A DNA stretch of 64,000 bases, taken from contig REDR01000028.1 of NCBI GenBank assembly GCA_007693385.1, positions 62,001 through 126,000 on the forward strand. Reading direction: 5' to 3'. The notes beneath the pieces were generated by a model. It searched no databases and had not been told where the DNA came from. It worked only from the letters and a program-made list of their open reading frames with translations. The translations under genes were made by a program, and so were the position numbers. Position 1 is the stretch's first letter; every line of letters begins with the position of its first letter. Origin of the DNA: Anaerolineaceae bacterium. GTDB lineage: Bacteria > Chloroflexota > Anaerolineae > Aggregatilineales > Phototrophicaceae. Shown in pieces: positions 1 to 15,195 of the stretch.

Positions 1-3000
1 ATTGTAGCCGAACTCGATCATGTGCGCAGGTATCAGGCCTTCAGGATTGAAGTCTTCGCCACCTTCAACAATAAGCATCACCCCGTGGAACGTCTCGCCA
101 CTCTCGACGCTGAACGTCAGACTGCTAAACGTGCCGGTGATTTCGCCATCGAATGGCGCTCCATTCCGGCCGCTACGCAGTGTTTCGCCGGTTTCGTCGT
201 CACGCAAGAACCAATTCGGTGCCGGGTCTTGCGGGACAGGCTCGCCGCCCACATTCACGAAGCTATAGATGTATGTACCGTTACTGTCCGGCACGCACAG
301 CAGTTCAGGCTGATAGCGTGGCGGGTTGTAGCAGTCCGCATTGTTGGCGGAAACCAGAGCGACATCGGCACTGCTGACTTCAACGCTGACGTTGGAGTAC
401 GGGCCGACGAACGTCTGCTCGAACTGTTCGGTCAGGTCGGTTTCGATGCTGAACATCGCCGTCCCGCCGCCGTTGATGGTATCCAGCGTGATCTCGATTG
501 TGGCTTGGCCGCCGACAATCGCGCCGCCTTCGTTACTGACGCGCACCGTGAACGAGCCGTTGGTGCCTTCCGGTTCACAAACAACCTCTGGCACGTAGAC
601 CGGCGGATCATAGCATTCGTCTAGCGTGAGCGTCGCTTCACCGACGATTGAACCTTCTGTCGTCGAGATTTGCGCCGTCAAGCTTTCAAAGCGGTCAGTC
701 ACGTCGATATTTTGCGATTCACCCGCGCCCAGTGTCAGCGCCACGTTGTTGTGGACTGTCTCGCTGACGCCGTTACGGATGCCGGTTACGGTGTAGCGCA
801 TCGGTTGATTCAGCGCGTCGCCGCCTTCATTGCTGAAGGTGAATTGGAACGCCCCGTTATCTTCCACACACACACCGGAGACGCTGTACGCCGGAGGCGC
901 ATAGCAGGTGTCATTGCTCGCTTCAGCCGAACGGACGCCCGGCGCACTCAGTACCGCGCTAACGCTGGTATAGGTGCCGGTGTACGTGTTGCTGAATAGC
1001 GGGCTAGCCGATAAGTTTTCGATGTCGATGTTGCGCGTGCTGGTTTCGCCGTCCTGATCGGTCAGGGTGATTTCTAGCGCCACGCTCGGATCGCCGTCCA
1101 TCATGACGAACGAACCACCGACGTTACGCGCTACCACGCTGAACTGACCATTCGAGCCGTCAACACACAGGACATCAAGCTCAAGCACCGGCGGGTTGTA
1201 GCATTCTTCAGCCGTAGCGCTCGCCACAGTCTCGCCGCCCGCGTAGACTTCAATCGACACACTGCTATAGCGGCCGGTGATGGTCTGCGGTGCTAGTACA
1301 CCACTCGATAGTTCGATGGGTGATTCGCTCTGCTGTTCGCCATCGATGAAGATCAGATAGCTCGGAACAGTGTCCACGATGTCGCCGCCGGAACGGTTGA
1401 CCGCTACACTGAACACGCCGTTTGAACCGCTCACACATTCGGCCAACGCCTCATATTGCGGCGCCTCGAAGCATGACAGCCCTTCGATGCCGGTCACAGC
1501 TTCACCATCAACCAGCAGGACGAGCGAGTCAAACTCACCGGTCACCGATAGCTCGACAGGGAAGGATGTGCTGGTGTTTAGCGTGCCGCTGAAGCCCGCT
1601 ACCGGCTGGCCTTCGCCAGTCTGGATTGCGTAGGTCATGCTCGGCGTACCGTTATCACCACCCACGAACGCGCCACCAGTATTGCTGATGGAGAAGTCAA
1701 ACACGCCATTGACGCCCTGACGACACACCGCGTTGTAGCTCAGTTGCGGCGGGTTGTAGCAGTCATCCAGCGTTAGCGATGTCTGGTTAACCGTGCCTTC
1801 TGCCAGATCAACGGAGAGCGTCACCGAAGCGAACGCACCCAGGAAGCTCTCAGGCAGGCCTTCCGGCGAACCGACGTATAGCGGATCGGGGTCAGCGCCA
1901 CTGACGGCTTCTGCGGTGACGGTCAAGACCGGCGCCACATTACCCGCAGGCTGGCTACTGTCATCAGTCAAGCCGAAGCTAAAGCTGAATTCACCCTGCG
2001 ACACACACGTACCGCTCAGTTGATACTGCGGCACTTCGTAGCAGTCACTACGCGCCACGCTGACGCTAGAGAAGACACTCTCGCCGTCGCCGTAGATGAT
2101 CTCGGCGGAAACGCTGGTGTAGCCTTCGATCAATGACGGTACATCGTCGCCATCAACCGCGCCCTGATACAGCGTCTCGGCGCTGTCGCTACCAACTTCG
2201 ATGCCGGTCACCGTCAACACGATGGACTCGCCGGGTAGCGGGTCGCCGCCGAAGGTGCTGGCCGACAGTTGGAACGAACCGTTGACATCATCAACACACA
2301 AGAGTTCAAGCGCCAGTGACGGCTCCTGATAACACTCGGTACTGGTCACGGTATTACTGATGTTGGTGCCACTGACTGAGGCTGTCGCACTCAGTTGTTT
2401 GTACTGGCCGAACGCCGGGTTGCTGTACGGGGTGTCGATCGGGCCGTTGAAGACCTCTTCGCCGTCGCCCGTCACTACTAGATTGACCGTCTGGCCGTCC
2501 AGCAGAGCGCCGCCGTCCTGCGTCACGTTCACGGTGAACGTGCCGTTCGGGGCATCCGGTGTACAGACGAGTTCTACGTCGATGGTCGGCGCTTCATAGC
2601 AGTTCGATTGCTTAGCCGTCGATCCGCTAATCGTACCTTCTTCAACGCTGGTGATCTGGATTTGCACCCAGCTTATGTCAAGCGGATCGGTCAGGAACTC
2701 GAACGGCAGGTCGCCGTAAGTGGTCTGGCCGTTGATCGCGTCACGCTCATCGCTGAACGTGATGGTGTAGTTGATGGCCGCGTTCGGGTTGATCGGGCTA
2801 CTGCTACCTTCGGCCAGATCGACGCCTAACGAGAACACACCATTGACCTCTGTACAGTCCGCATACGCTTGAACGCGCGGCGCGGTGTAGCAGACATCGC
2901 TACTGGCTGAACTGGTCACTTCACCACCCAGACCGCTCAGCGTCACAACAGTGCTGACACTGGTCGTCGGCCCGAAGTCCTGCGAGAACGACGTACCGAA

Positions 3001-6000
3001 GTCGGTGAATGTTTGCGCGTCCTGTCCGGCTTCCGTCACCTGTACCGTCAGGGTTTGACCCGGCAACGGCAGACGATTTTCGCTGGAAACACCGGCGTTC
3101 ACGGTGAACACACCGTTCTCGTCAGTACATTCAACGCTCGCGTTCAGCGACGGCGGCGCGTAACAACCCTTCACCATCTTGGCTGGCACGTCTAAGTCGG
3201 TGCCATCCACTGATAGCATCAGGCTACTGGTCGCCCACGACACGCTAATGCCGTTAGCAACGAGATCAGCCAGAGCGCCGCTAGTCACAACCGTGCCATT
3301 CGGATCAATCACGGTGTACGTCGCGCCGTCGGGCAGTTCGCCCTGCGTCAGGTTGGCGGAGAACAGATACGGCACGTTTTGATTGCCGTCCGTCGGATCA
3401 GCACACACACCACCCAGCCTTAACTGCGGCGGGATGTAGCAGGTGTCAACCTGTGTTTGACCATCGCCAGCAACCCGCAGGTTGTCGGACACGCTATCAA
3501 TCGTGATGCGTACCCACTGGATCGTCAGCGGTTCAGTGCTAAAGCTGAACGGCAGGTCGTTGTAAGTGGTCTGACCGGTGATCGAGTCGCGGCCATCGCT
3601 AAACGAGATCGTGTAGTCGATGGTCGTATCGCCAACCGGCGACAGGTTATCGTCAGCGACGATGCCGACGGTGAACACACCGCTTTGCTCAGCACATTCG
3701 CCGGTTGTGGCGACTGCTGGCGGCGCGTAGCAGTTGGCGCGTGTTACAGCGTCAACGCTGATCGGTGCGCCTTCAACGGTCAGGGTCAACGAGGCCAGCG
3801 TGGTGCTGACAGTCGTCGGTAGGGCGCTTAGCGGCCCGGACTCTAACACGTTGTCGGGGTTACCGGTCTCAAAGATCGTGTAAGTCACGCTGTCGAGATC
3901 GATGCCCTGCACGGAGTCAATGGAGAACTGGAAGTCGCCATTGTCAAGACAGGTCGAGCCGATGCTCAGTTGCGCGTTCAGTGTATTGGTGACCATGTGC
4001 TGGCAGAACTTATCCAGCCCATCAACCACGCCACAGGTCAGGTGATCGCCACTCGGACCGAACGTTCCGGTACCGGAGACTGACCAGCCGGGGACGGTGG
4101 TTTCGGTCACGGTGTAGGTCGTATTCGGCGGGACGATCAAGCCACGCGGATCAACCACGTTACCGGGGTTGCTGTATTCACAGCTCAGGCTTTCGCCTGC
4201 CCATGTACACACCGCACTGCTGATCTCGCTCTGAGCGGTGATCTGCCAGCCTTCCGGCAGGTCAGGCAAGACGTTGCTCTGTTCACCGCGAGGCGCTTCG
4301 TCGCCAAACTGCGCGACGACCCACTCTTTGTCAATCAAGATGTGCGTGCCACACGGATTACTGCCGGCGCTAGCGGTTGAACTACGTCCGAACAGACTCC
4401 AGACGAGGTTGCCGCCGTCGAAGTTAACGGTGAACGCGCTATCCGGCCAGAAGCTGGTGCGTCCGGTTTCAAACGTGCTCGGCTGACCACGATCCGCCGG
4501 TGACGGGCTGAAGGTATTGCCCGCAGAACCAGCCGCGATCTCTACCACGCTACCGGAGTTATTGACGTAGCCGAAGTGCGCCACGTATTCACCCGGCCCG
4601 GTTTGCTCGACACATTCGAGGATCGGGCGGACATCCGGCGCGGTACAGGTTGTCTGTGCCGTCACGTCAAAGTCTGCCACGCTCAAGGTCACGAGGCCAT
4701 AAGCGCCCGTTACCGTCACGTTGATCTGCTCATTCGCGTCTAGCTCGATGGATTGCGGCGAGAAGCTCGGTTCGCCCTGTGCCGATGTCACGGTGATGTT
4801 CGCCGCTTCGGTCATCGGACCGCCTTCGTTGACGATGGTGAATGTCGCGCCCGTAGCGTCACATTCGCCAGTCACGGTCAATTCCGGCTCAACGAAACCA
4901 CACGGCCCTTCGATGGTCGCGTTCGGCTCGCTAAAGCCCGGATGTCCCGGACGCTGGTCGGCTTCAAAGCGCAGGTTTTCGCTATCCGCGTATTGCGGGA
5001 ACGCGAATTCAGCAAAGTCGCCATTAGCGCCTAGCTGTACCGTGCCACTTTCAACCAATTCGCCATCTTCAAGCAGACGCCACTCGATCGGGCCCTGCAT
5101 GGCTTCGCTATCTTGGCCGTTGGTGATGGTGAATAACGGGATGCCTTCTGCAGTACACAGGCCATCAACGCTGATGCTGGAGCGATCCCAGCAACTGCGC
5201 TCAAAGACGCGGGTGATGGTCTGCTGGCGGAAGTTAACCTCAATAACGACGCCGTTATTGGGGATGACGTTGGCCTGTAGCGTGAACTGCGCCGATTCAC
5301 CACGCGCTAACGCGGCTTGTTCGGACAAGATCGCGCCCGGCGCACCGGTACGGCGTGTCACTACGACGGAGGCGCTTTCGCCCGCGTCCATGTCGCCGCC
5401 GGAGTTCTGCAACGTGATGAGGATGCTACCATCCGGCTGGCAGGAAGCCGTCAGTTCCACGAACGGGTTCTGCTGGCTGACCGTACCACCAACGGCGCGA
5501 CGTTGCTCGATGACGCCGGTTGATGTGCCACTCTGGATGAACATACGGATGAGATAGCTACCGGGTTGGTCGTAGGTGTAGCAGACCACATCGGCATCTT
5601 CCGGTGTATCTAACTGACCTTCGCCGCCGAAGTCCCAGCCCGTCACGACCACACCTTCAGCCGTTACAGACGACACACAGATTTGATTCCCCTCGGGGAA
5701 CTGCGTGATGAACGTCGAGCTTTCCTCGAATTCGGTGAACACGCGGACGGTATTGGTCGCCGTCAAGCTCAGGCCGATTTCGTTGGTCACAGTCAGACTG
5801 ACTTCAAACTCTTGACCGTCGCCCGTATATGTCGAGCAGACGACGCCTTCGTAGTTATCCGGCGTGAATTCGATGATCGTGCCGTTGGCGAGGTCCCATT
5901 GCCACGACACAATATCAGAACCGGTGCTGGATGATTGGTCATAGAAGCAGATTTGACCGCCACTGATGACCCCATACGGCTCGGCGTAGAAGTCGGCAGA

Positions 6001-9000
6001 GATGGCGCTATCCGCCGGGAAGACCGTCACGACGACTGTCGCTTCGACTTCCATCAACGAACCTTGCCCGCGAACCAGTATGGTGTACTCGGTCGGCTCT
6101 TGCACGCTTTCGCTGAACTGCCAGCTAACCGAAGCGGTGCCCTGTGCGTTGAACTGCACGCCGTTGATGAACCAAACCAGCGAGCTTTCGTCCACGTTGG
6201 TCAGTGTCGCGGTGAAGTTCACCGTCTCGCCGACTAGAACAGCCGTCGAGCTGGCGTCAACGCTGATCGCGTCTTCATCAGCGACGGTGATGCTGACCGT
6301 CTTGTGGCCGCGCAGGTTACGATGCGCACCGACCTCACCATCCAGACGGATGATGTATTCGCCGATTTCATCGTATGTGATGCAGACTTCCGGCTGGAAT
6401 ACGTCGCTGGTCACGGGTGACACACCCTGACCGTCGCCGCCCTGATCGAAGTTCCATGTCCAGACAACCGACGATTCTTCGACATCATCGAAGTTAGTCG
6501 TCGAGAGGTTGGTCACACAAACCTGACCGCCCGGCGGCACGCGGACTTCATCCGTCTCGAAATCAACATTCAAACGCCCAACCGGAATCGAGCGCGTAGC
6601 GGTACAGTATTGCGTACCGTCATCGCCCACAACTTCAACGCTCAGGTCATAGAAACCTGTCGTCAGTTGTTCCGACCAGACCGACGAATTAACCGATAGC
6701 GAATTCGACGAGGTGCGTCCGATTTCAACGCCGCCCAACGTCCAGATCAACGTGACCGGCGTACTGCCGCTTTCCACGTTGTAGTTGAAGTTGTACGTCG
6801 CGTTGGCTAACGGCGCGGTCCTCGAACCGGCGATGAATGTATCACAGGAGACCTGCGTCCCGCGCACAGCGATGTCATGCGAAACCTGACATTCTTCTTC
6901 GTTACCTTGATCGTCGAACGCGACGACGTAGTAAACGATGGTGTAGTTCAGATTGTCGTCGTCGTCAAACGTGAAGCCGAAGCTGGTGCTATCGCTCGAC
7001 GAGCCGACCAGTTGACCGGTTTCACTGTTGAACAGTTCCCAATCCACCGAGAAGCCACGACCACGCAAATTGAAGATTTCGCGGTCAGCGCGGGCGCGGA
7101 ACGTCACGGTTTCATCCAACAACGGGGTGAATGTGCCGTCAGGCGCTTCGCATCGTAGCGGATCGAAGCCGACTTCAACAGATGTGAACGGCGCGTCACA
7201 GGTGACGGTCTGGCCGTCAGCGCTGATCGAGCCTTGAATGGCGAAGCTACCGCCGGACTGCCACGCAACCGTCACCGACTGCTCATCCAGACCGCCCGCG
7301 ATAATTTGCGGGTTGCCGAAGAACTGCCAGCTATAGCTGAGCGCGTTGCCGTAGGCGCTGAGTACGTCCGCCGGAACGTTCAGGGTGTAGGTCACATCCT
7401 GACCGGGGGCGGCGCTACCGCTACCGACTAACTGACACGCCAGATCAGGCGCGGCGACGGTGACGGAGAACGTAGCCTCACACACAGCGCCGTCTTGCAG
7501 TTCAGCGCTGTAGCTGATGCTATACTGTCCGGCTTCACCCCACTCGATGCCCAGTTCGCCCGCGTCGCCACTGGCGATCACGTTGCCGCCGCCATCGACT
7601 ATCTGCCATTGCTGGCTGACGATCTCACGTCCGGCTAGGCCATCGTATCCGGCGCTGTAGCTGGTGCTACTGCCCGGCAGGACGAAATCCGCACCTTGAA
7701 TCACACATGCGAATTCCGGCGCGGTGACGGTAATCACGGCGCTATCTTTAACGCTACTGCCGCCCGCATTGCTGACGGTCAGGCGCACGATGTAGGTTCC
7801 AGCCTGTTCGATCTGGAACGATGTGTTGTAGTTCACGGTATCCGTCGCCACAACGGTATCTTCACCATTGGCGCGGAGGAACAACACCCACTCCCACGCG
7901 GTCACGTTACCCTGACTGGTGTTCGTCAGCGAGATCGTGCCACCGGCGCTGAGTTCCGTCGCGGAGACGGTGAAATCAGCGATGGGCGGTTGCTGGCCGG
8001 AAACGATGTTGACGAAACGGGAGTCCGCCGCCGTCGCACCCTGACCACTGGTGTTCAGTGTGACGCTATAGCGGCCTGCCTCTTCGTATGTGTGGCAGAC
8101 GACTGCATCATTATTCTGAACTGGCTCGCCACCATCGAAGAAAATCCATGTGGCGGTTTCGTAGTTCTGGCTGTTGTTACGCAGACAGACGGTGTACGCG
8201 CCGGTCTCATCGTCGAAGGTGATGCTCTCGACGCTGAAGCTGGCGGTCACGGTACCACCGGTGACGGCAGTCGCGGTCTTGATGACCTGCCCACTGGTCG
8301 CACCACCGGAACCGGAGACGTTCATCTCCACGGTGTACGTGCCGACGTTTTGTAACTCGGCGGTGTGCGGGCCTGGCCCTTCAAACGTGAATAGCACGTC
8401 GCCACTGGAATTCAGCACGCGCCATGACCACGTATCAATCGGGCCGCCGTTATCGGTATCACTGTTATCTTGCACGGTGATGATGAACGGTTGGCTGTCG
8501 CTCCACTCTTGCACGCGGGTCACGGTGAAGTCGGGGATCAACTCGCGTAGCGGCTCGTTGACGGTGACCGTCGCGCTGGCGGTTGCAGTACGCGGATCAC
8601 CTTCACCGGCGCGATCACCGGTCAGCGTCAGCGTGATTTCCCAACGGCCAATTTCGTTAAGTACGAAAGTCGGGTTCTGGTCGGAACTGGTCAGATCATC
8701 CGTCGATCCATCCAGCCACACGGCACGCCACGCATAGCTGAGCGTTTCGCCGCTTAGCGTGCTGGAAGAATTATTGGTGATGACGATTTCTAGCGGGGCG
8801 TCGCCGCTACCACGCGATACGGTGAAGTCCGGCAACAGGAATGTTTCCTGCTCTTCGGAGATTTCCACCGTCACTTCAAACGGTAACGGATCAATCGACT
8901 CCGCGCCTTCTACGACAGCACAGGTCAACGTACCGTTAACCGTGATGGTTTCTTCGTAGTCGCGGGTGAAGTCATCGCTGACGACGACATCGCCGCCGCC

Positions 9001-10101
9001 GAAGTCCCAGCTAAAGCTCTCGACGTTCTCGGACGATTCAATGAAGAAGCGTACCGTCAACGGAACTTCGCCTTCTGGCGACACAAACTCGATATTCGGC
9101 GAACACGAAGCGGAGATCACCTCGACGACTTCGATAGTCACCGAACCGGCGGTCTGCAACGTGCGCCCGAATTCGTCGGTCAGCGTCAAGGTGACGGTAT
9201 ACGTCCCTTCGCCCTCGGGGTAGGTGTGCGACACTTCCGACTGGTCGCCGGCGGTGTTGCCGTCGCCAAAGTCCCAGCTCACAGTGTAACCGACATCGTT
9301 ACTGCTGGTATCGCGGAATGTCACGACATCATCTTCAATCGAGACGACCTCGAATGAAGCGTTAGTCAGTCCCGGCCACGCGGATTCGGTGATCGTCAGG
9401 TTATCACTGACCGACACATCTTCCGCACCGTCGGCGCTGACGGTCAGCGTCACGGTATACGTTATCGGATCATCGCCCGGATACGCATAGGTGTGTTCGA
9501 CGTTTGCACCGCTTGCGGTATTGCCGTCGCCGAAGTCCCATGAATAGGTGAGTTCCAGATCGGACGGTTCAACAGTCGCCGAACCGTTAAACGTATAAAC
9601 ACCGGACGGACCGCCGGAGGCATCAAATGAAACTGAAGTGATGAGCGGGTCAACCTCTACCTGCTGTTGCATAGCGGCTGGCGCTTCTTCTTCAGTCGGC
9701 TCTTCGGTTGGCTCGTCCGTCGGCTCTTCCACTACCGGCTCATCGGTTGGTGGTGGCGGATCAGTCGGCGGAGGCGGCGGATCGGTTGGTGGTGGTGGCG
9801 GATCAGTCGGCGGAGGCGGCGGATCCGTTGGTGCCGGTGGAGGCGGTTGCTCTTCCTCCTGTGGTGGCGGCGGATCGTCTTTATCGTCCGCGTCTTCTGC
9901 TTCGTCGGCGTCGTCTAATCCACGACGGGCGGCGGTGGGTACCGGCGTCGGCACGATTTCAGTCGCAATAACGGCGACTTCTGTCGGCTCGGCGGCGGGT
10001 TCACCCGTACCACTCGTTAGGATGACAACTGCGCCAACCAGCAAGACGGCGACGAATACGACAATCGCCAATATCTGGTTAGTCTTCAAGTTGTTGTTCA
10101 T
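1..10101 (-). CDS. Giant N-anchored PKD/Ig-like repeat surface protein (partial, C-terminus outside window)
   Basis: The reverse strand is open in one frame from an ATG at 10101 to the window edge, giving at least 3367 residues. A GGAG (10109-10112) lies 7 nt before the ATG. The N-terminus is short and polar, followed by one hydrophobic segment (about residues 10-31) that looks like an uncleaved signal anchor. A Pro/Glu/Thr/Asp-rich stalk follows (to about residue 150, including a TDPPPPP repeat). Next come PKD-type modules with WDFGDG motifs (Trp codons at 9540 and 9276, variant at 9009) and more divergent Ig-like modules down to about 5500. A patch with a TVTETTVPGW motif near 4100 resembles SpaA/prealbumin-like repeats. 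The C-terminal part has at least 13 tandem modules starting with CYxPP. No catalytic motif was recognised. I infer an extracellular adhesin or scaffold. PKD and Ig folds are typical of secreted proteins, but the ligand cannot be told from sequence. Confidence 0.88.
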   Translation of the reverse strand, partial: MNNNLKTNQILAIVVFVAVLLVGAVVILTSGTGEPAAEPTEVAVIATEIVPTPVPTAARRGLDDADEAEDADDKDDPPPPQEEEQPPPPAPTDPPPPPTDPPPPPTDPPPPPTDPPPPTDEPVVEEPTDEPTEEPTEEEAPAAMQQQVEVDPLITSVSFDASGGPSGVYTFNGSATVEPSDLELTYSWDFGDGNTASGANVEHTYAYPGDDPITYTVTLTVSADGAEDVSVSDNLTITESAWPGLTNASFEVVSIEDDVVTFRDTSSNDVGYTVSWDFGDGNTAGDQSEVSHTYPEGEGTYTVTLTLTDEFGRTLQTAGSVTIEVVEVISASCSPNIEFVSPEGEVPLTVRFFIESSENVESFSWDFGGGDVVVSDDFTRDYEETITVNGTLTCAVVEGAESIDPLPFEVTVEISEEQETFLLPDFTVSRGSGDAPLEIVITNNSSSTLSGETLSYAWRAVWLDGSTDDLTSSDQNPTFVLNEIGRWEITLTLTGDRAGEGDPRTATASATVTVNEPLRELIPDFTVTRVQEWSDSQPFIITVQDNSDTDNGGPIDTWSWRVLNSSGDVLFTFEGPGPHTAELQNVGTYTVEMNVSGSGGATSGQVIKTATAVTGGTVTASFSVESITFDDETGAYTVCLRNNSQNYETATWIFFDGGEPVQNNDAVVCHTYEEAGRYSVTLNTSGQGATAADSRFVNIVSGQQPPIADFTVSATELSAGGTISLTNTSQGNVTAWEWVLFLRANGEDTVVATDTVNYNTSFQIEQAGTYIVRLTVSNAGGSSVKDSAVITVTAPEFACVIQGADFVLPGSSTSYSAGYDGLAGREIVSQQWQIVDGGGNVIASGDAGELGIEWGEAGQYSISYSAELQDGAVCEATFSVTVAAPDLACQLVGSGSAAPGQDVTYTLNVPADVLSAYGNALSYSWQFFGNPQIIAGGLDEQSVTVAWQSGGSFAIQGSISADGQTVTCDAPFTSVEVGFDPLRCEAPDGTFTPLLDETVTFRARADREIFNLRGRGFSVDWELFNSETGQLVGSSSDSTSFGFTFDDDDNLNYTIVYYVVAFDDQGNEEECQVSHDIAVRGTQVSCDTFIAGSRTAPLANATYNFNYNVESGSTPVTLIWTLGGVEIGRTSSNSLSVNSSVWSEQLTTGFYDLSVEVVGDDGTQYCTATRSIPVGRLNVDFETDEVRVPPGGQVCVTNLSTTNFDDVEESSVVWTWNFDQGGDGQGVSPVTSDVFQPEVCITYDEIGEYIIRLDGEVGAHRNLRGHKTVSITVADEDAISVDASSTAVLVGETVNFTATLTNVDESSLVWFINGVQFNAQGTASVSWQFSESVQEPTEYTILVRGQGSLMEVEATVVVTVFPADSAISADFYAEPYGVISGGQICFYDQSSSTGSDIVSWQWDLANGTIIEFTPDNYEGVVCSTYTGDGQEFEVSLTVTNEIGLSLTATNTVRVFTEFEESSTFITQFPEGNQICVSSVTAEGVVVTGWDFGGEGQLDTPEDADVVCYTYDQPGSYLIRMFIQSGTSTGVIEQRRAVGGTVSQQNPFVELTASCQPDGSILITLQNSGGDMDAGESASVVVTRRTGAPGAILSEQAALARGESAQFTLQANVIPNNGVVIEVNFRQQTITRVFERSCWDRSSISVDGLCTAEGIPLFTITNGQDSEAMQGPIEWRLLEDGELVESGTVQLGANGDFAEFAFPQYADSENLRFEADQRPGHPGFSEPNATIEGPCGFVEPELTVTGECDATGATFTIVNEGGPMTEAANITVTSAQGEPSFSPQSIELDANEQINVTVTGAYGLVTLSVADFDVTAQTTCTAPDVRPILECVEQTGPGEYVAHFGYVNNSGSVVEIAAGSAGNTFSPSPADRGQPSTFETGRTSFWPDSAFTVNFDGGNLVWSLFGRSSTASAGSNPCGTHILIDKEWVVAQFGDEAPRGEQSNVLPDLPEGWQITAQSEISSAVCTWAGESLSCEYSNPGNVVDPRGLIVPPNTTYTVTETTVPGWSVSGTGTFGPSGDHLTCGVVDGLDKFCQHMVTNTLNAQLSIGSTCLDNGDFQFSIDSVQGIDLDSVTYTIFETGNPDNVLESGPLSALPTTVSTTLASLTLTVEGAPISVDAVTRANCYAPPAVATTGECAEQSGVFTVGIVADDNLSPVGDTTIDYTISFSDGRDSITGQTTYNDLPFSFSTEPLTIQWVRITIDSVSDNLRVAGDGQTQVDTCYIPPQLRLGGVCADPTDGNQNVPYLFSANLTQGELPDGATYTVIDPNGTVVTSGALADLVANGISVSWATSSLMLSVDGTDLDVPAKMVKGCYAPPSLNASVECTDENGVFTVNAGVSSENRLPLPGQTLTVQVTEAGQDAQTFTDFGTSFSQDFGPTTSVSTVVTLSGLGGEVTSSASSDVCYTAPRVQAYADCTEVNGVFSLGVDLAEGSSSPINPNAAINYTITFSDERDAINGQTTYGDLPFEFLTDPLDISWVQIQITSVEEGTISGSTAKQSNCYEAPTIDVELVCTPDAPNGTFTVNVTQDGGALLDGQTVNLVVTGDGEEVFNGPIDTPYSNPAFGQYKQLSATASVSGTNISNTVTSTECYQEPSLALELLCVDDVNGSFQLSASTFGGDPLPGESIVLTVTGIEVGSDSAETLYQGAVDGDDVPSLIEGYTSVSAEIIYGDGESVFSSVSVARSDCYEVPQYQLSGTCVSQGEFSFSFGLTDDSSQPAGNVAPVLTVTAEAVSGADPDPLYVGSPEGLPESFLGAFASVTLSVDLAEGTVNQTSLTLDDCYNPPQLSYNAVCRQGVNGVFDFSISNTGGAFVGGDNGTPSMTYAIQTGEGQPVAGFSGTLNTSTSFPVELSVTGEFDSLVLLVDGEAVTGIEGLSCFEAPQYEALAECVSGSNGVFSVAVNRSGGDIVDTVPSYLIFIDGEQQSESPIELSSGVLAPQTITGRYSSVSIEVYAGGETVASATAEECYNPPVLELDVLCVDGSNGQFSVVARNVGGSFVMMDGDPSVALEITLTDQDGETSTRNIDIENLSASPLFSNTYTGTYTSVSAVLSAPGVRSAEASNDTCYAPPAYSVSGVCVEDNGAFQFTFSNEGGDALNQPMRYTVTGIRNGVSETVHNNVALTLGAGESQNIDVTDRFESLTAQISTTEGSIVGEATLTLDECYDPPVYVPEVVCEPEGTNGSFTVRVSNEGGAIVGGQATIEITLDTINGGGTAMFSIETDLTEQFEQTFVGPYSNVSVEVSSADVALVSANNADCYNPPRYQPELLCVPDSNGTYIYSFVNVGGEPVPQDPAPNWFLRDDETGETLRSGRNGAPFDGEITGTFSSLTFSVESGETFHGVMLIVEGGEDFNPEGLIPAHMIEFGYN
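333..3732 (-). repeat. Thirteen tandem protein modules of 89-99 residues starting with CYxPP
   Basis: Inside the giant gene a Cys-Tyr-x-x-Pro motif recurs in frame, with Cys codons starting at 3732, 3441, 3165, 2892, 2601, 2334, 2043, 1761, 1473, 1203, 906, 615 and 333. Spacings are 267-297 bp, all multiples of three. Variants include CYNPP, CYDPP, CYAPP, CYEVP and CFEAP. Each motif is followed 7-10 residues later by a second Cys and then usually an NGxF motif, and many modules go on to NxGG. One disulfide per module is a plausible inference. The modules are alike at protein level but clearly diverged at DNA level. Confidence 0.85.
9742..9832 (-). repeat. 21-bp tandem repeat encoding TDPPPPP stalk units
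   Basis: About four copies of a 21-nt unit encode Thr-Asp-Pro(4-5) in the giant surface protein, between its membrane anchor and first PKD domain. Pro-rich stalks of this kind commonly hold a surface domain away from the membrane. The plus-strand Gly-rich frame through it is a mirror of the Pro codons. Confidence 0.8.
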
Positions 10102-10516
10102 CAATTATCTCCAGAAAGCTTCCAACATGATTTACGAAACCGGTGCGGCTCGCAATTTGGGCGGAACCACAACGCGGTTCTTCCCCCGTGATTACAGATC
10201 ACACGTACACGAAATAGTCACTACTATGGTCGATCACAACCTCCTGTAAGGTCTATCCATGATTTCCGTACAGTAACTCTACGATCAAGTGTAGCGTATT
10301 TACGATTTAATCAAACTCAATATAAAAGCTTTTTTATAAAGGACGGGGGGATTAGCGGCGGTGTAACGAGAATATATCGTTTATCTGACGAACGCCAACT
10401 TTGCTCAAATATTCACTTATCTAGCTTTAATGTCAGGGCGGTATTGACTTTAATCGTGTGTGATACCATGATTTTTGAAGTTTAGTTTGTTCTAAATCGC
10501 ACAAAAGGATCGTAGC
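10102..10516. other. Divergent intergenic region between the giant surface gene and the ABC importer operon
   Basis: No gene was found. The region holds the upstream sequences of two divergent genes. An A/T palindrome with arms TATAAAA (10321-10327) and TTTTATA (10332-10338) sits in the middle. On the minus strand an isolated AGGAGG (10240-10245) has no usable start at proper spacing, and a weak hairpin GAACC/GGTTC lies in the presumed leader of the giant gene. A weak minus-strand promoter (TTGATT, 15 nt, TACACT) may lie near 10285-10312, which would give a leader of about 180 nt. Confidence 0.5.
10444..10472 (+). promoter_or_regulatory. Candidate sigma-70-type promoter of the ABC importer operon
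   Basis: TTGACT (10444-10449) is followed after 17 nt by CATGAT (10467-10472). The -35 is good and the -10 is weak (4 of 6). The site is about 45 bp upstream of the binding-protein start, which has an AAAGGAT ribosome binding site at 10503-10509. Confidence 0.4.
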
Positions 10517-11884
10517 ATGATTCGCAAAACATTGACCATCGCACTATTGATTGCCCTGAGCGTCATCCTCTCCGCGCAGATGTTACAGGCGCAGGACGAA
10601 GATGATCTGCCCGTCTTACGCATCGGCGTTCTGCCGGTGTTGAACACCCTGCCGCTTTACGTCGCACAGGCCGAAGGCTTCTATGAAGAAGCTGGCGTCA
10701 GCGTGGAGTTAATCAACTTCAACAGCGCCCGCGAACAGCAAATCGCCATTACCGCCGGTGAGATTGACGGCCTGAATACCGATATGGCGGTGCAGGCGTT
10801 GATCGCCGGTAGCGGACGCGATTTGATCGCGGTGCGCCACGAGCCGATACGCGGCGCTTATTTCTCCATCGTGGCCGGCGCGGATAGCGGCATCGAATCC
10901 ATTGATGATCTGGTCGGCGCGGAAATCGCCATCGCCGAGAATACCATCATTGAATACCTGACGACGGCGATGCTGGCCTCCGCCGGATTGAGCGCTGATG
11001 ATGTCGTCTATGAGGAAGTGCCGGAAATCCCGCGCCGCCTGCAACTACTCGGCACCGGCGAGCTACAAGCCGCCACCCTGCCGGAGCCGCTGACCACACT
11101 CGCCACCGCATTACAGGGCGGGACGGTCATCGCCAGCGATAGCGAACTGGACTTCGTGCCCACCGTACTCGCTTTCACCGGTGACATCATCGCCGAACAG
11201 CCGGAAGCCATCACCGCGTTCTTGAGCGCGTACGAGAGCGCCGTGAACGCCATCAACGCCGACGGCGAAGCGTTCCGCGATGTGATGAACGCCAACCTCA
11301 TCATCCCTGAACCGCTACGGCCAACCTATCCGGTGCCCGCCTTCCCGACGGCGCAAGTGCCGACGCCGGAACAGGTGGCGCTGGTGGTCGATTGGATGGT
11401 CGAGCGTGGCTTGCTGGCCGAAGCGCTGAGTTACGAAGCGCTGGTTAATGGCGAATTCCTGCCGCTACCCACTATTGCTGAGATCGCCGTCGCCGAGGGC
11501 AACTTCGAGACGCTGGTCAATGCGCTGGTTTCCGTCGGGCTGGTCGATGCGCTAGCCTCCACCGCGACGCAATCCACCGTGTTCGCGCCGACTGATTCGG
11601 CCTTCGACGGCGTAGACCTCGCCGCGCTGGTCGATTCCGACGATGCGCTGGCCGAGATTTTGCTATATCATGTGATCGCCGGACAGGTGAGCGCCGCCGA
11701 CATCATCGCGGCGGGAAGCGGGGCGCTGACCACGTTAGCAGGCGCGGACATCGCGTTTGAAGTGGTCGATGGCGTCGTCGTGCTCAATGGCGAAATCACG
11801 GTGACGCTGGCCGACATCGACGCCAGCAACGGCATCATTCACGTCATCGACGGCGTACTGCTTCCGGCTGGAACGGACGAATAA
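10517..11884 (+). CDS. ABC transporter substrate-binding protein (NMT1/SsuA-like) fused to a fasciclin (FAS1) domain
   Basis: This 455-residue secreted protein starts with a signal peptide (cleavage near residue 25, after the AQ-rich end). Residues about 35-310 read as a periplasmic-binding fold of the NMT1/nitrate-sulfonate-taurine type: the early LRIGVLPVLNTLPLYVAQ stretch matches how these proteins begin, followed by an FYEEAGVSVELI motif. Residues about 318-455 form a FAS1 domain, with TVFAPTDSAF (H1) and YHVIAGQ plus an ending of the form IIHVIDGVLLP (H2). Fasciclin domains mediate adhesion or protein and polysaccharide contacts. Such a tail is unusual on a binding protein. The gene leads an operon with an ATPase (18 bp downstream) and a permease. 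The substrate is unknown: aromatic/pyrimidine precursors, sulfonates and nitrate are all possible for the family. Confidence 0.88.
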   Translation: MIRKTLTIALLIALSVILSAQMLQAQDEDDLPVLRIGVLPVLNTLPLYVAQAEGFYEEAGVSVELINFNSAREQQIAITAGEIDGLNTDMAVQALIAGSGRDLIAVRHEPIRGAYFSIVAGADSGIESIDDLVGAEIAIAENTIIEYLTTAMLASAGLSADDVVYEEVPEIPRRLQLLGTGELQAATLPEPLTTLATALQGGTVIASDSELDFVPTVLAFTGDIIAEQPEAITAFLSAYESAVNAINADGEAFRDVMNANLIIPEPLRPTYPVPAFPTAQVPTPEQVALVVDWMVERGLLAEALSYEALVNGEFLPLPTIAEIAVAEGNFETLVNALVSVGLVDALASTATQSTVFAPTDSAFDGVDLAALVDSDDALAEILLYHVIAGQVSAADIIAAGSGALTTLAGADIAFEVVDGVVVLNGEITVTLADIDASNGIIHVIDGVLLPAGTDE

Positions 11885-11902: not shown

Positions 11903-12697
11903 ATGACGATCACGCAACAAACATCTGCCCGCCATTCGGCGGGCAATCGACAACAGACGCCCATCCTATCGCTGGAGGGCGTCACATTCGGTTATGCCCG
12001 CACGCCCCTGCTGGATAACTTCACGTGGCATATCGCGCGCGGCGAGACGTGGAGCGTGCTGGGGCCATCCGGAAGCGGCAAGACCACTCTGCTGTATCTG
12101 CTGGCCGGTTTGCGCCGCCCGCAGGCTGGCCGCATCACATTCAAAGGGCAGGCTGTCACCAAGCCGAACCCCGCTATCGGCCTGATGCTTCAAGCGTATG
12201 GCCTGCTCCCGTGGCTGACCGCCGAGCGCAACGTGCAACTCGGCCTGAAAATCCGCCGCGTACTTAAAAAGGAACGTCACCGCATCCGCGCCGAGTGGAT
12301 GGAGCGAATGCAGATCAGCCACATCGCCGGTAAATATCCGGCGCAACTATCCGGCGGGCAACGTCAGCGCGTGGCGCTGGCGCGGGTGCTGGCCTTGCAA
12401 ACCGAAGTCCTCCTGCTCGATGAGCCGCTGAGCGCCGTCGATGAGTTGACGCGGGAACGGCTACAAAAGACCCTGCGCGAGATCACCGCCGAACTGAATA
12501 GCACGATGGTGCTGGTGACGCACAGCGTCGAAGAGGCCGCCTTGCTGACGCAAAACGTGCTCATCTTTCCGGAGGAGGGCACATTACGAGCGTCCCGCGT
12601 GCTGTGTAGCCCGTTCAGCGCCGATAAGCCGCCACACCGCACCGATCCCGATTTTCAAGCATTCTGCGCGGAAATTCGCGCCGAACTCGGCCTATAA
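11903..12697 (+). CDS. ABC transporter ATP-binding protein, nitrate/sulfonate/taurine type
   Basis: This 264-residue ATPase should energise the adjacent importer. Walker A GPSGSGKT is at residues 54-61, a Q-loop near 97, the signature LSGGQ at 149-153, Walker B VLLLDEP at 169-175, and the H-loop His at 207. The FTWHIARGE start of the nucleotide-binding fold and the length fit the SsuB/TauB/ThiZ group. The first 20 residues are an extra polar N-terminus. The ribosome binding site is weak, consistent with coupling to the preceding gene. It lies between the binding protein and permease genes on the same strand, so all three components form one system. Confidence 0.93.
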   Translation: MTITQQTSARHSAGNRQQTPILSLEGVTFGYARTPLLDNFTWHIARGETWSVLGPSGSGKTTLLYLLAGLRRPQAGRITFKGQAVTKPNPAIGLMLQAYGLLPWLTAERNVQLGLKIRRVLKKERHRIRAEWMERMQISHIAGKYPAQLSGGQRQRVALARVLALQTEVLLLDEPLSAVDELTRERLQKTLREITAELNSTMVLVTHSVEEAALLTQNVLIFPEEGTLRASRVLCSPFSADKPPHRTDPDFQAFCAEIRAELGL

Positions 12698-12707
12698 GGT
12701 TAGCGCC

Positions 12708-13559
12708 ATGTCACCGAACGCCCCCGCACCCCCGCATGACCGCTTCTTCGGCTGGCTGAATATACGCGCTGGCGCGTTGCTCATCCTGCTGGTTGATCTG
12801 CTGATTCTGGCCGCGCTGTGGCATGTGGCGGCGGTCAACGCCGATTCCGCATTTCTGCCGACGCCCGGCGTCGTGATGGAGCGCTTCTGGGAAGAATTGC
12901 AATTCGAAGACATCCACAACCTACCGCCCAACCACCTGCTGAACCAGACGTTCATCAGCACGCGGCGCGTCGTCCTCAGCGTCGGGATCGGCGTCGGGCT
13001 GGCCGTGCCGTTGGCGCTCCTGCTGGTACAGGTCAAAGCGCTCAACGCGATCTTGACGCCTCTGCTGTACTTCCTGTTCCCCGCGCCGAAAGTGGTTTTT
13101 CTGCCGTTGATTATCCTGTTTCTAGGGCTGGGCGATAACGCCCGCGTTTTCCTCATTACGCTGGTCATCTTCTTTCAGGTATTCGTCATCGTGCATGACG
13201 CCACCGGACAGGTACCCACCGAAACGCTGGAGTCGCTCAGTTCGCTCGGCGCGGGGCGCTGGCATTTCCTGCGTTATGTGTATCTCCCGATCAGCATTCC
13301 GGCGGTTTTCACCGCATTGAAGATCAGCACCGGCACGGCTATCGCGGTCTTATTCATCGCGGAAACCATCGCCGGACGCACCGGACTCGGCTACTACATC
13401 AAAGCCGCCGATCAAACATTCGTGTATCCGACGATGTACGTCGGCGTGTTGATGCTGTGTTTGGTGGGGCTGGTGTTGTTCGTGTTCTTCTGGGTGGCGG
13501 AGCAATATCTGAATCGCTGGCAGAATAGCGACCAGACCGGCCACAAAGTCGGCGGTTAG
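12708..13559 (+). CDS. ABC transporter permease, SsuC/TauC family
   Basis: This 283-residue inner-membrane permease has about six hydrophobic segments and a BPD_transp_1-type cytoplasmic loop around residues 175-205, including SLGAGRWHFLRYVYLPISIP, the EAA-like coupling motif that contacts the ATPase. It begins 10 bp after the ATPase stop with an AAGG 8 nt before the ATG. The long PxxFxPxPKxxxLPLxxxxxGxGDxAR pattern (around residues 125-145) is characteristic of the nitrate/sulfonate/taurine permeases. It completes the three-gene importer operon. Confidence 0.92.
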   Translation: MSPNAPAPPHDRFFGWLNIRAGALLILLVDLLILAALWHVAAVNADSAFLPTPGVVMERFWEELQFEDIHNLPPNHLLNQTFISTRRVVLSVGIGVGLAVPLALLLVQVKALNAILTPLLYFLFPAPKVVFLPLIILFLGLGDNARVFLITLVIFFQVFVIVHDATGQVPTETLESLSSLGAGRWHFLRYVYLPISIPAVFTALKISTGTAIAVLFIAETIAGRTGLGYYIKAADQTFVYPTMYVGVLMLCLVGLVLFVFFWVAEQYLNRWQNSDQTGHKVGG

Positions 13560-13990: not shown

Positions 13991-14668
13991 TTAACGTCCG
14001 AACAGTTCCATCATGTAATCCATCGAAAGCCCCTGTTCTTCCAGATGAGCGCGGAGCTTGCGGCGGGCATCGTGCATCAGCTTGTACAGCGCGTTACGGT
14101 TGGTGTCCATCTGCTCCGCGACGACATCCATCGGCACGCCACGCAACGCCACCGCCTGAATCACCTGATACTGGCGCTCGGTCAGCGCTTCGCGCATGGC
14201 GGCGTCGATGCGGTGCAGTACGTCGCGCCGTTCGGTGCTGGTTTCCGGGCCGGGCGGGTTATCATTCAAGCCGGAGCTAAGATCAGTGTTGGTGGGGAAC
14301 AGTTCGCCGTCGGCGGTGATGTTTTCCAGACTAAAATCTTTGTGGCGGGCGCGACGCAGATCGCTGATCGCCAGCCGAACCGCGATGCGGCTCGCCCATG
14401 TGGTGAACTTGCTCTCGCCGCGAAACATATCCTTGCTAGCGATCACGCGCAAGGTGGCATCCTGTGCCAGATCATCCGCCATACGCTCGATTTCACGGTA
14501 CGCCAGCGAGCGCAAATCACTACGATCCTGACTCAAATAATACAGAATACTGCGCCGCACATGGCGCTGTAAGTCTTCGATGGCGTTAGCCTGCGTCTCG
14601 CCATCAGCGCGGAGGTCAGCCAGCCATTGCTCGTTGGTGCGGTCCGTGCGGGTTTGGCCGTCGGTCAT
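13991..14668 (-). CDS. Sigma-70 family (ECF-like) RNA polymerase sigma factor
   Basis: This 225-residue protein has a sigma region 2 (about residues 60-110, with the ADDLAQDATLRV and KFTTWASRIAVRLAISDLRR core-binding and -10 recognition features). After a 45-residue linker comes a region 4 helix-turn-helix (about 160-205: LTERQYQVIQAVALRG...MDVVAEQMDTNRNALYKLMH). There is no region 1.1 or 3, so it is of the ECF type. Its ATG overlaps the stop of the FHA gene by 4 bp (ATGA), so the two are translationally coupled. No anti-sigma gene adjoins. Coupling to a phosphothreonine-binding protein suggests control by the nearby Ser/Thr kinases, which is an inference. Confidence 0.88.
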   Translation of the reverse strand: MTDGQTRTDRTNEQWLADLRADGETQANAIEDLQRHVRRSILYYLSQDRSDLRSLAYREIERMADDLAQDATLRVIASKDMFRGESKFTTWASRIAVRLAISDLRRARHKDFSLENITADGELFPTNTDLSSGLNDNPPGPETSTERRDVLHRIDAAMREALTERQYQVIQAVALRGVPMDVVAEQMDTNRNALYKLMHDARRKLRAHLEEQGLSMDYMMELFGR

Positions 14669-15195
14669 GAGTCTGTGTTGGTATCCTCTTGATAGGTGAT
14701 CCGCATGACCAGCTTGCCCAGCCGTAAGTCGTCACCATCGCGCAGGATGCGCGGCTGATTGGGCACAAGGCGCTGGCCGTTGAGGTATGTCCCGTTACGA
14801 CTATCGTTATCCACCAGTTGCAACGAGCCATCACGCCGCACGATGCGGGCATGATCGCGGGAGACGCCTTTTTCCAACGCGCCGTATTGGGTTAAATTGA
14901 TCGCGGGGGTGTTACCGGTACGCGAGTCTTCGCGCCCGATGATGAGTTCGTCGATGTCTTCCGCCACAAACTGAAACGTCGTCGGGTTAGAATCCACACC
15001 CAGCATCAACAGAGTACGCGCATTAAACCGCGCCGACCCCCACTTCGCCCGCCCTTCTTCATAATCGGCATCTTCCAATGATTTGGTTGAAGTCTGCTGG
15101 GTGGTATCCGCCAGCAAAGCGCCGCATATCACGCAAATTTGCGCGTCAGGTTGATTAACCTGCCCGCAGTCTTTACATTTTCGGATTTCTTCCAT
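14665..15195 (-). CDS. Zinc-ribbon plus FHA domain protein
   Basis: This 176-residue protein has an N-terminal double CxxC zinc ribbon (CKDC at about 7-10, CVIC at about 21-24). After a linker comes a forkhead-associated domain at about 80-170 with the usual GRE, SRDHARI and NGTYLNG motifs (Arg, Ser-Arg-x-His, Asn-Gly). FHA domains bind phosphothreonine peptides. The product is soluble and cytoplasmic. A GAGAG lies just upstream of the ATG. It is the first gene of a two-gene operon with the sigma factor, so a plausible role is phosphorylation-dependent scaffolding or control of that sigma factor. Two Ser/Thr kinases in the window (17159 and 37960) could supply the phosphate. Confidence 0.87.
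   Translation of the reverse strand: MEEIRKCKDCGQVNQPDAQICVICGALLADTTQQTSTKSLEDADYEEGRAKWGSARFNARTLLMLGVDSNPTTFQFVAEDIDELIIGREDSRTGNTPAINLTQYGALEKGVSRDHARIVRRDGSLQLVDNDSRNGTYLNGQRLVPNQPRILRDGDDLRLGKLVMRITYQEDTNTDS

Follow-up and report, generated by a model that had tools for sequence, protein, structure and literature searches.

Organization of the locus

The window analyzed here, that is, the whole 64-kb stretch of DNA, carries a single ORF of 455 residues on its forward strand at 10517-11884, with an ATG start, a TAA stop and no internal stops. Judging from its domain matches, the product is a secreted NMT1/SsuA-like substrate-binding protein (SBP) that continues into a complete FAS1 domain. 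Genes for an ATPase and a permease follow after intergenic gaps of 18 and 10 bases, so that the SBP, ATPase and permease of an SBP-dependent ABC importer are found together in one operon:

10517..10594 (+), signal sequence, residues 1-26 (sequence; AlphaFold helix 2-26)
10616..11461 (+), NMT1/SsuA-like substrate-binding domain, residues 34-315 (Pfam NMT1_2 and NMT1; AlphaFold; VIA fold match)
11501..11866 (+), complete FAS1 domain, residues 329-450 (Pfam PF02469; PDB FAS1 chains)
11903..12697 (+), ABC ATPase (PF00005, 5.4e-32)
12708..13559 (+), ABC permease, BPD_transp_1 (PF00528, 1.9e-18)

In the Pfam search of the window protein, NMT1_2 (PF13379) matched residues 32-252 with 64.1 bits against a cut-off of 24.7, and NMT1 (PF09084) matched residues 43-248 with 58.6 bits against 20.5. 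The Fasciclin model (PF02469) scored 101.3 bits against a cut-off of 22 (E 5.4e-29) and was covered from position 2 to 123 of 123, which is why the FAS1 domain is regarded as complete. MqnA/MqnD (PF02621) was not among the Pfam matches at E <= 0.01. The N-terminal region contains no lipobox Cys in the sequence, and the protein does not fall among lipoprotein SBPs. The best NCBIfam model was the SsuA family (SsuA_fam, TIGR01728) with 117.6 bits (5.7e-34), under its cut-off of 163.5, and no NCBIfam model exceeded its cut-off for the window SBP or for the four homologs scanned. For the permease, the nearest NCBIfam models were SaoP, TauC and SsuC, all under cut-off. Both observations of the first-pass annotation on gene structure, namely a binding fold followed directly by a complete FAS1 domain and an operon with one ATPase, one permease and this protein as the sole receptor, were thus borne out by the intact ORF, the neighboring ORFs and the Pfam scores.

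Related SBPs stop where FAS1 starts here. For example, the homolog at L047 ends in ...SVNGSFLP, and the window protein has ...VNGEFLP ending at residue 316, followed by PDB FAS1 matches from residues 318-320 and by the Pfam FAS1 match from residue 329; the join is therefore short and in frame. Composition is even across it (GC/GC3 of 0.604/0.746 for the SBP part, 0.631/0.764 for the FAS1 part and 0.621/0.739 for the ATPase). Among the matches listed, the exact pair of an NMT1-like SBP and FAS1 was found in one draft genome only, which might suggest an assembly or sequencing artefact, and an error merging two genes had been raised before. However, the in-frame join at the usual SBP end, the even composition, the intact downstream operon and the presence of other SBP-FAS1 pairs in the same bacterial family (see below) make such an artefact extremely improbable.

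A predicted structure, as proposed in the first-pass annotation, was obtained with AlphaFold. The SBP part was modeled well (block mean pLDDT 86-98 for residues 31-320). Confidence stayed low for the FAS1 part, with pLDDT 31-65 in the first model, whose alignment held no FAS1 rows and for that reason gave little confidence there, and a mean of 45.4 in a second model with four FAS1 rows. The FAS1 assignment consequently comes from sequence. The top VIA fold match of the SBP part was SsuA (2x26; Z 28.2, rmsd 2.6, 279 aligned), tied with others down to Z of about 27.3, and the model lies near SsuA, CmpA, TauA, PqqT and Thi5-type structures, among which ties are frequent. In phmmer searches against PDB, the SBP part matched PqqT (9b1u, 1.2e-5) and SsuA (2x26, 3.2e-4), whereas a profile of the SBP family placed SsuA nearest among solved SBPs (4.2e-16) and PqqT weaker (9.4e-9).

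Several known systems therefore invite comparison. SsuA/NMT1-like SBPs with SsuBC-type ATPase and permease (TIGR01728, PF13379, PF09084) share Pfam domains, operon make-up and fold with the window system, but the window SBP is under the NCBIfam cut-off and has the additional FAS1 domain, and many of its relatives adjoin menaquinone genes. PqqT, a PQQ-binding SBP of Methylobacterium whose cargo is described in an excerpt of PMC12124388 as a redox quinone acid, shares the SBP fold (Z 25.5), although identity in the fold alignment is 19% and the PqqT chain lacks FAS1. MqnA and MqnD (PF02621) are menaquinone enzymes of SBP fold, and MqnD (2czl) matches the window SBP model with Z 21.1; the window protein differs from them by its signal sequence, its ABC operon and the lack of a PF02621 match. 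As for the FAS1 part, it shares its domain by sequence with TGFBI (phmmer 3.4e-27), CupS (1.4e-17) and the astaxanthin-binding AstaP, which by name are not SBPs, unlike the window protein.

Elsewhere in the 64-kb window, no matches were found for menG, menA, mqnP, mqnL or ubiX queries, and thus the operon is not located beside menaquinone genes. A search for a riboswitch or RNA leader that could give a clue to the cargo returned just two tRNAs at gathering scores. A sigma-70-like factor adjoining an FHA protein that weakly matches a zinc ribbon is located downstream of the permease on the opposite strand (13991-15195), and a 3996-residue ORF with PKD domains and PD40 repeats occupies 1-10104 (-) and extends beyond the window (L081:115-12105).

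Homologs of the receptor and menaquinone genes

Strong homologs of the window SBP (30-52% identity) were identified in 102 of 396 genomes of the class among the matches listed; the weakest match kept was 1.4e-35, and with matches listed to about 1e-24 and no more than four candidates scored per genome, weak homologs may be missed. We examined the neighborhoods of 98 loci, representing 97 of these 102 genomes plus G464. A late menaquinone gene (menG, menA, mqnP- or mqnL-like) was found near 65 of them, including 36 of the 47 loci flanked by 5 kb or more on each side, and 16 of 24 families had one or more such loci. The relatives, though not the window operon itself, thus show the gene context expected for an importer of a menaquinone precursor. 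Two arrangements are usual: mqnL-mqnP-SBP-ATPase-permease-menG, and SBP-ATPase-permease facing a convergent menA, with menG on its far side. When ten neighbors were sampled against NCBIfam, MenA, MenG, MqnL (TIGR03701) and UbiX were over a cut-off; the MqnP-like prenyltransferase stayed under the MqnP cut-offs, and one neighbor was MTAP. As a control, none of 26 loci of PF13416 SBPs, all from two genomes (G000, the window's own, and G178), had a late gene within 1.5 kb, compared with 15 of 29 homolog loci.

No late gene was found at the remaining 33 of the 98 loci, and eight of the 24 families (f16, f50, f40, f21, f37, f25, f43 and f4) had no locus with one in this set; further f4 loci outside the set do have mqn genes. 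The ATPase was present at 67 of the 98 loci. Thermoflexus records are among the homolog bearers, and all seven loci of that family (f16) lack both a late gene and such an ATPase nearby. A scan of named genomes yielded 80 loci, mostly from Chloroflexota and many overlapping with the 98-locus set, of which 62 had a late gene; the few titled as other phyla may be misbinned contigs. Two homologs with menA adjoining (L214 and L223) are on contigs titled Rokuibacteriota and Deltaproteobacteria, which would reflect either gene transfer or misbinning. F420 genes, named by eye, were noticed near two f32 loci. Residues separating menA-linked (16) from mqn-linked (77) SBPs were also listed, but ancestry was uncontrolled and the list supports no claim.

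The SBP nearest to that of the window was found in G178 (52% identity), between menA and the ATPase/permease genes. At this locus (L043:2831-10441), menA is separated from one ATPase/permease pair by a tandem array of seven SBP domains; two ORFs contain two SBPs each, and one copy is frameshifted. In G464, too, menA lies beside the SBP, which is truncated at the end of the contig. A phylogenetic tree of the SBPs (93 rows, thinned by family) grouped the G000 and G178 copies in one clade (100/100) on a long branch apart from the rest. At positions 56, 74, 75, 97, 140, 151, 207 and 289, where a single residue accounts for 86-97% of the sequences elsewhere, G000 deviates; the G178 copies are also altered at conserved sites, such as 75 and 151. 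Considering this long-branched clade and its altered sites, the cargo of the window copy may differ from that of the other homologs, and, as far as sequences can indicate, the evidence for the probable role of the family is stronger than that for the precise cargo of this divergent member.

The window genome itself (96.85% complete) has menA (contig C112) and menG (C97), both over cut-off, and no match was found in it for menD (E 1e-40), menB (1e-70) or mqnA/D (1e-10). Its menG is adjoined by a UbiD-like gene under the MqnL cut-off, and the transporter operon lies apart from both menA and menG. More generally, strong homologs and early menaquinone genes are nearly mutually exclusive. We detected menD in only 2 of the 102 homolog genomes (G383 and G214) versus 105 of the 294 others (Fisher p 8e-14, uncorrected for descent). 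Even within single genera (g45, g105 and g182), menD without a strong homolog is seen in some genomes and the homolog without menD in others. We then compared 80 chosen genomes with completeness of at least 85%, 50 with and 30 without a strong homolog, the latter picked for weaker matches or family kinship rather than randomly, with hits of 1e-20 to 1e-24 partly unlisted. In the homolog and comparison genomes, respectively, menB was present in 1/50 and 15/30, mqnA/D (PF02621) in 0/50 and 3/30, any early gene in 1/50 and 19/30, and menA or mqnL over cut-off in 49/50 and 26/30. In all these counts species are not independent, and absence in draft genomes may reflect incompleteness. On the other hand, 11 of the 30 comparison genomes, eight of them with menA, had neither an early gene nor a strong homolog. 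This argues against a simple one-to-one exclusion, and there must be either a different route of uptake or an importer that has diverged further.

Domains fused to ABC receptors

The first-pass annotation had suggested a search for the same domain pair in Chloroflexota. Using the whole window protein as query and scoring a limited number of candidates, we found no second protein with an NMT1-like SBP and FAS1 among the matches listed in 396 class, 98 family and 154 order genomes, which are overlapping sets. A separate check of FAS1 proteins, however, revealed FAS1 on two other types of SBP in the same bacterial family. In G000, an ORF on contig C33 (L001:1066-2916) encodes FAS1 (105.4 bits) followed by a Bmp/PnrA-like SBP (172.3 bits) and is a lipoprotein by its N-terminus (lipobox by eye). 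This ORF runs to the contig end, and another contig starts with the same residues and continues with two more FAS1 domains. In G412 (L073:1498-3228), a Peripla_BP_6 (LivK-type) SBP (146.8 bits) is followed by FAS1 (91.0 bits); a lipobox is absent, and a gene for a branched-chain-type permease adjoins. FAS1 of G412 is 49% identical to that of the window protein, and the best G000 copies are 46-47% identical. Like the window protein, both are ABC receptors carrying FAS1, but their SBP families are unlike that of the window, and the Bmp protein has FAS1 ahead of the SBP. FAS1 is thus present on three SBP types, and the idea that an SBP-FAS1 fusion in general is unique to the window protein could be ruled out.

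Other scans were negative. Six large FAS1 ORFs from as many genomes other than that of the window, five belonging to other families and one to the family of the window genome, were scanned and contained no SBP domain. They came from 20 regions, 18 of which represented new sites (other genomes plus G000). Single-protein scans of the window protein against genome contigs and of its FAS1 part against viral contigs found no relatives, and of the 32 plasmid records matching the window protein, none matched across more than 80% of the query in the best 10 of 32 listed. Among the FAS1 ORFs, one of 985 residues (L301:2132-5086, G279) has three FAS1 domains and a choice-of-anchor I domain.

A different module was found on other members of the SBP family. 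Homologs were collected as 190 rows, from which N-rich or short cores and duplicates were dropped to give 143 unique proteins, and five incomplete ORFs were then removed. In 12 of the resulting 138 unique complete homologs, a C-terminal monohaem cytochrome c occupies the same position as FAS1 in the window protein:

L228:4862-6020, SBP with C-terminal monohaem cytochrome c (also L230, L218, L242 and others; 12 unique complete cases)

Eleven of these belong to f4 and one to f61, both families of the window genome's order, and PF00034 was over cut-off in all four fusions scanned. The cytochrome label requires at least two changes on the SBP tree, and the C-terminal end therefore appears to be a repeated fusion site of this family. 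Haem on the receptor would fit a redox-active cargo.

A lipobox was recognized by pattern in 106 of the 138 homologs, none of which has an add-on domain, and in none of the 12 cytochrome c fusions. The pattern misses some cases: among the 20 rows classed as non-lipoprotein without a module, six have a fitting Cys by eye, seven have long linkers (start out of view) and seven have none. Compared with these homologs, 18 of 19 PF13416-type SBPs in G000 lack a lipobox. It was also absent in five control SBPs of G178, two of the seven having been read in the wrong frame and left out.

FAS1 is most likely an add-on that docks or retains the receptor. The same module is carried by three unlike receptors, which makes a role at the receptor level, such as docking, retention or clustering, likelier than assistance with one particular cargo. 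The first-pass annotation had already suggested that FAS1 could tether the receptor to the envelope or to a partner, which would be compatible with any cargo. This stays plausible, at a little short of even chances, and its odds were raised by the finding of FAS1 on two other SBP types; the absence of a lipobox from the receptors of the window and G412 points the same way. Other observations speak against FAS1 as a needed anchor. The 18 lipobox-free SBPs of G000 are all away from FAS1 matches, the Bmp fusion has both a lipobox and FAS1, and the G178 copies of the window SBP have neither FAS1 nor a clear lipobox (one being ambiguous). The first two of these observations indicate that FAS1 is not simply a substitute for a lipid anchor. 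By analogy with AstaP, a carotenoid-binding FAS1 protein, contact between FAS1 and the cargo may also occur.

Candidate cargo and its implications

Based on the gene neighborhoods of the relatives, we propose a menaquinone precursor as the cargo. The window operon is probably an SsuABC/NitT-TauT-type ABC importer for a soluble late precursor, a dihydroxynaphthoate, with both the cargo and import itself being what we infer from gene context. That PqqT, as a related SBP, binds a redox quinone acid is in favor of such a cargo. The SBP would capture the precursor outside the membrane and the ATPase and permease would import it, after which the prenyltransferase and MenG could complete menaquinone, and the early pathway would become dispensable. 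The cargo would be 1,4-dihydroxy-2-naphthoate (DHNA) where menA is kept, as in G000, and 1,4-dihydroxy-6-naphthoate where mqnP/mqnL-like genes are kept.

Two other types of cargo should be considered. If the menaquinone linkage of the relatives does not extend to the divergent window copy, the operon could be an ordinary sulfonate/taurine or nitrate-type importer, as might be expected from the SsuA family as best NCBIfam model, from SsuA as the (tied) top fold match and nearest solved SBP by profile, and from the changed conserved sites in G000. However, neither the window SBP nor the four homologs reach the NCBIfam cut-off, the closest relatives in G178 and G464 adjoin menA, and G000 keeps menA and menG in spite of having no match for menD, menB or mqnA/D, so we consider this possibility unlikely. 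It is also conceivable that another pathway or redox compound is imported, for example o-succinylbenzoate, a naphthoquinone such as menadione, PQQ or another aromatic acid. PqqT as the best SBP match by phmmer and as a fold match is in line with such a compound, and the cytochrome c fusions would suit any redox-active cargo. Nevertheless, menB was not found in 49 of 50 homolog genomes, and thus o-succinylbenzoate could not be completed by the known route there. The enzymes of the neighboring menA, menG and mqn genes, moreover, presumably act on dihydroxynaphthoates, and a cargo of this other kind seems to us quite unlikely.

With import of a dihydroxynaphthoate as the preferred reading, a more speculative and rather doubtful extension is that this importer family has one C-terminal site on the receptor for swappable tools. 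In that case, cytochrome c might adjust the redox state of the bound dihydroxynaphthoate prior to its import, and FAS1, in the window lineage, might place this and unlike ABC receptors in the envelope.

Such an importer would match a gap noted in excerpts of several previous studies. Transporters for menaquinone or DHNA had not been described according to PMC5738691, importers of menaquinone precursors were still to be annotated and needed prediction and testing (excerpt of PMC4746308), and yet unidentified quinone uptake routes were expected in L. plantarum (excerpt of PMC10746273). Bacteria with only the last two menaquinone genes have been reported to grow on DHNA from neighbors (excerpt of PMC9704088). 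For Thermoflexus hugenholtzii, an excerpt of PMC8129789 mentions a NitT/TauT-type system and the lack of a defined medium. Among the papers listed in literature searches, none described an importer of this kind or an SBP fused to FAS1 or to cytochrome c, and later or subscription work may exist.

SBP-dependent ABC importers as such are a known kind of system, and the present one is of interest chiefly as part of a candidate family of menaquinone-precursor importers with unusual receptor fusions. This family offers a concrete and cloneable candidate in Chloroflexota for an import function described as missing. If the proposed role is true, it would explain the loss of early menaquinone genes within a genus, and adding DHNA to the medium would be worth trying for Anaerolineae that are difficult to culture.
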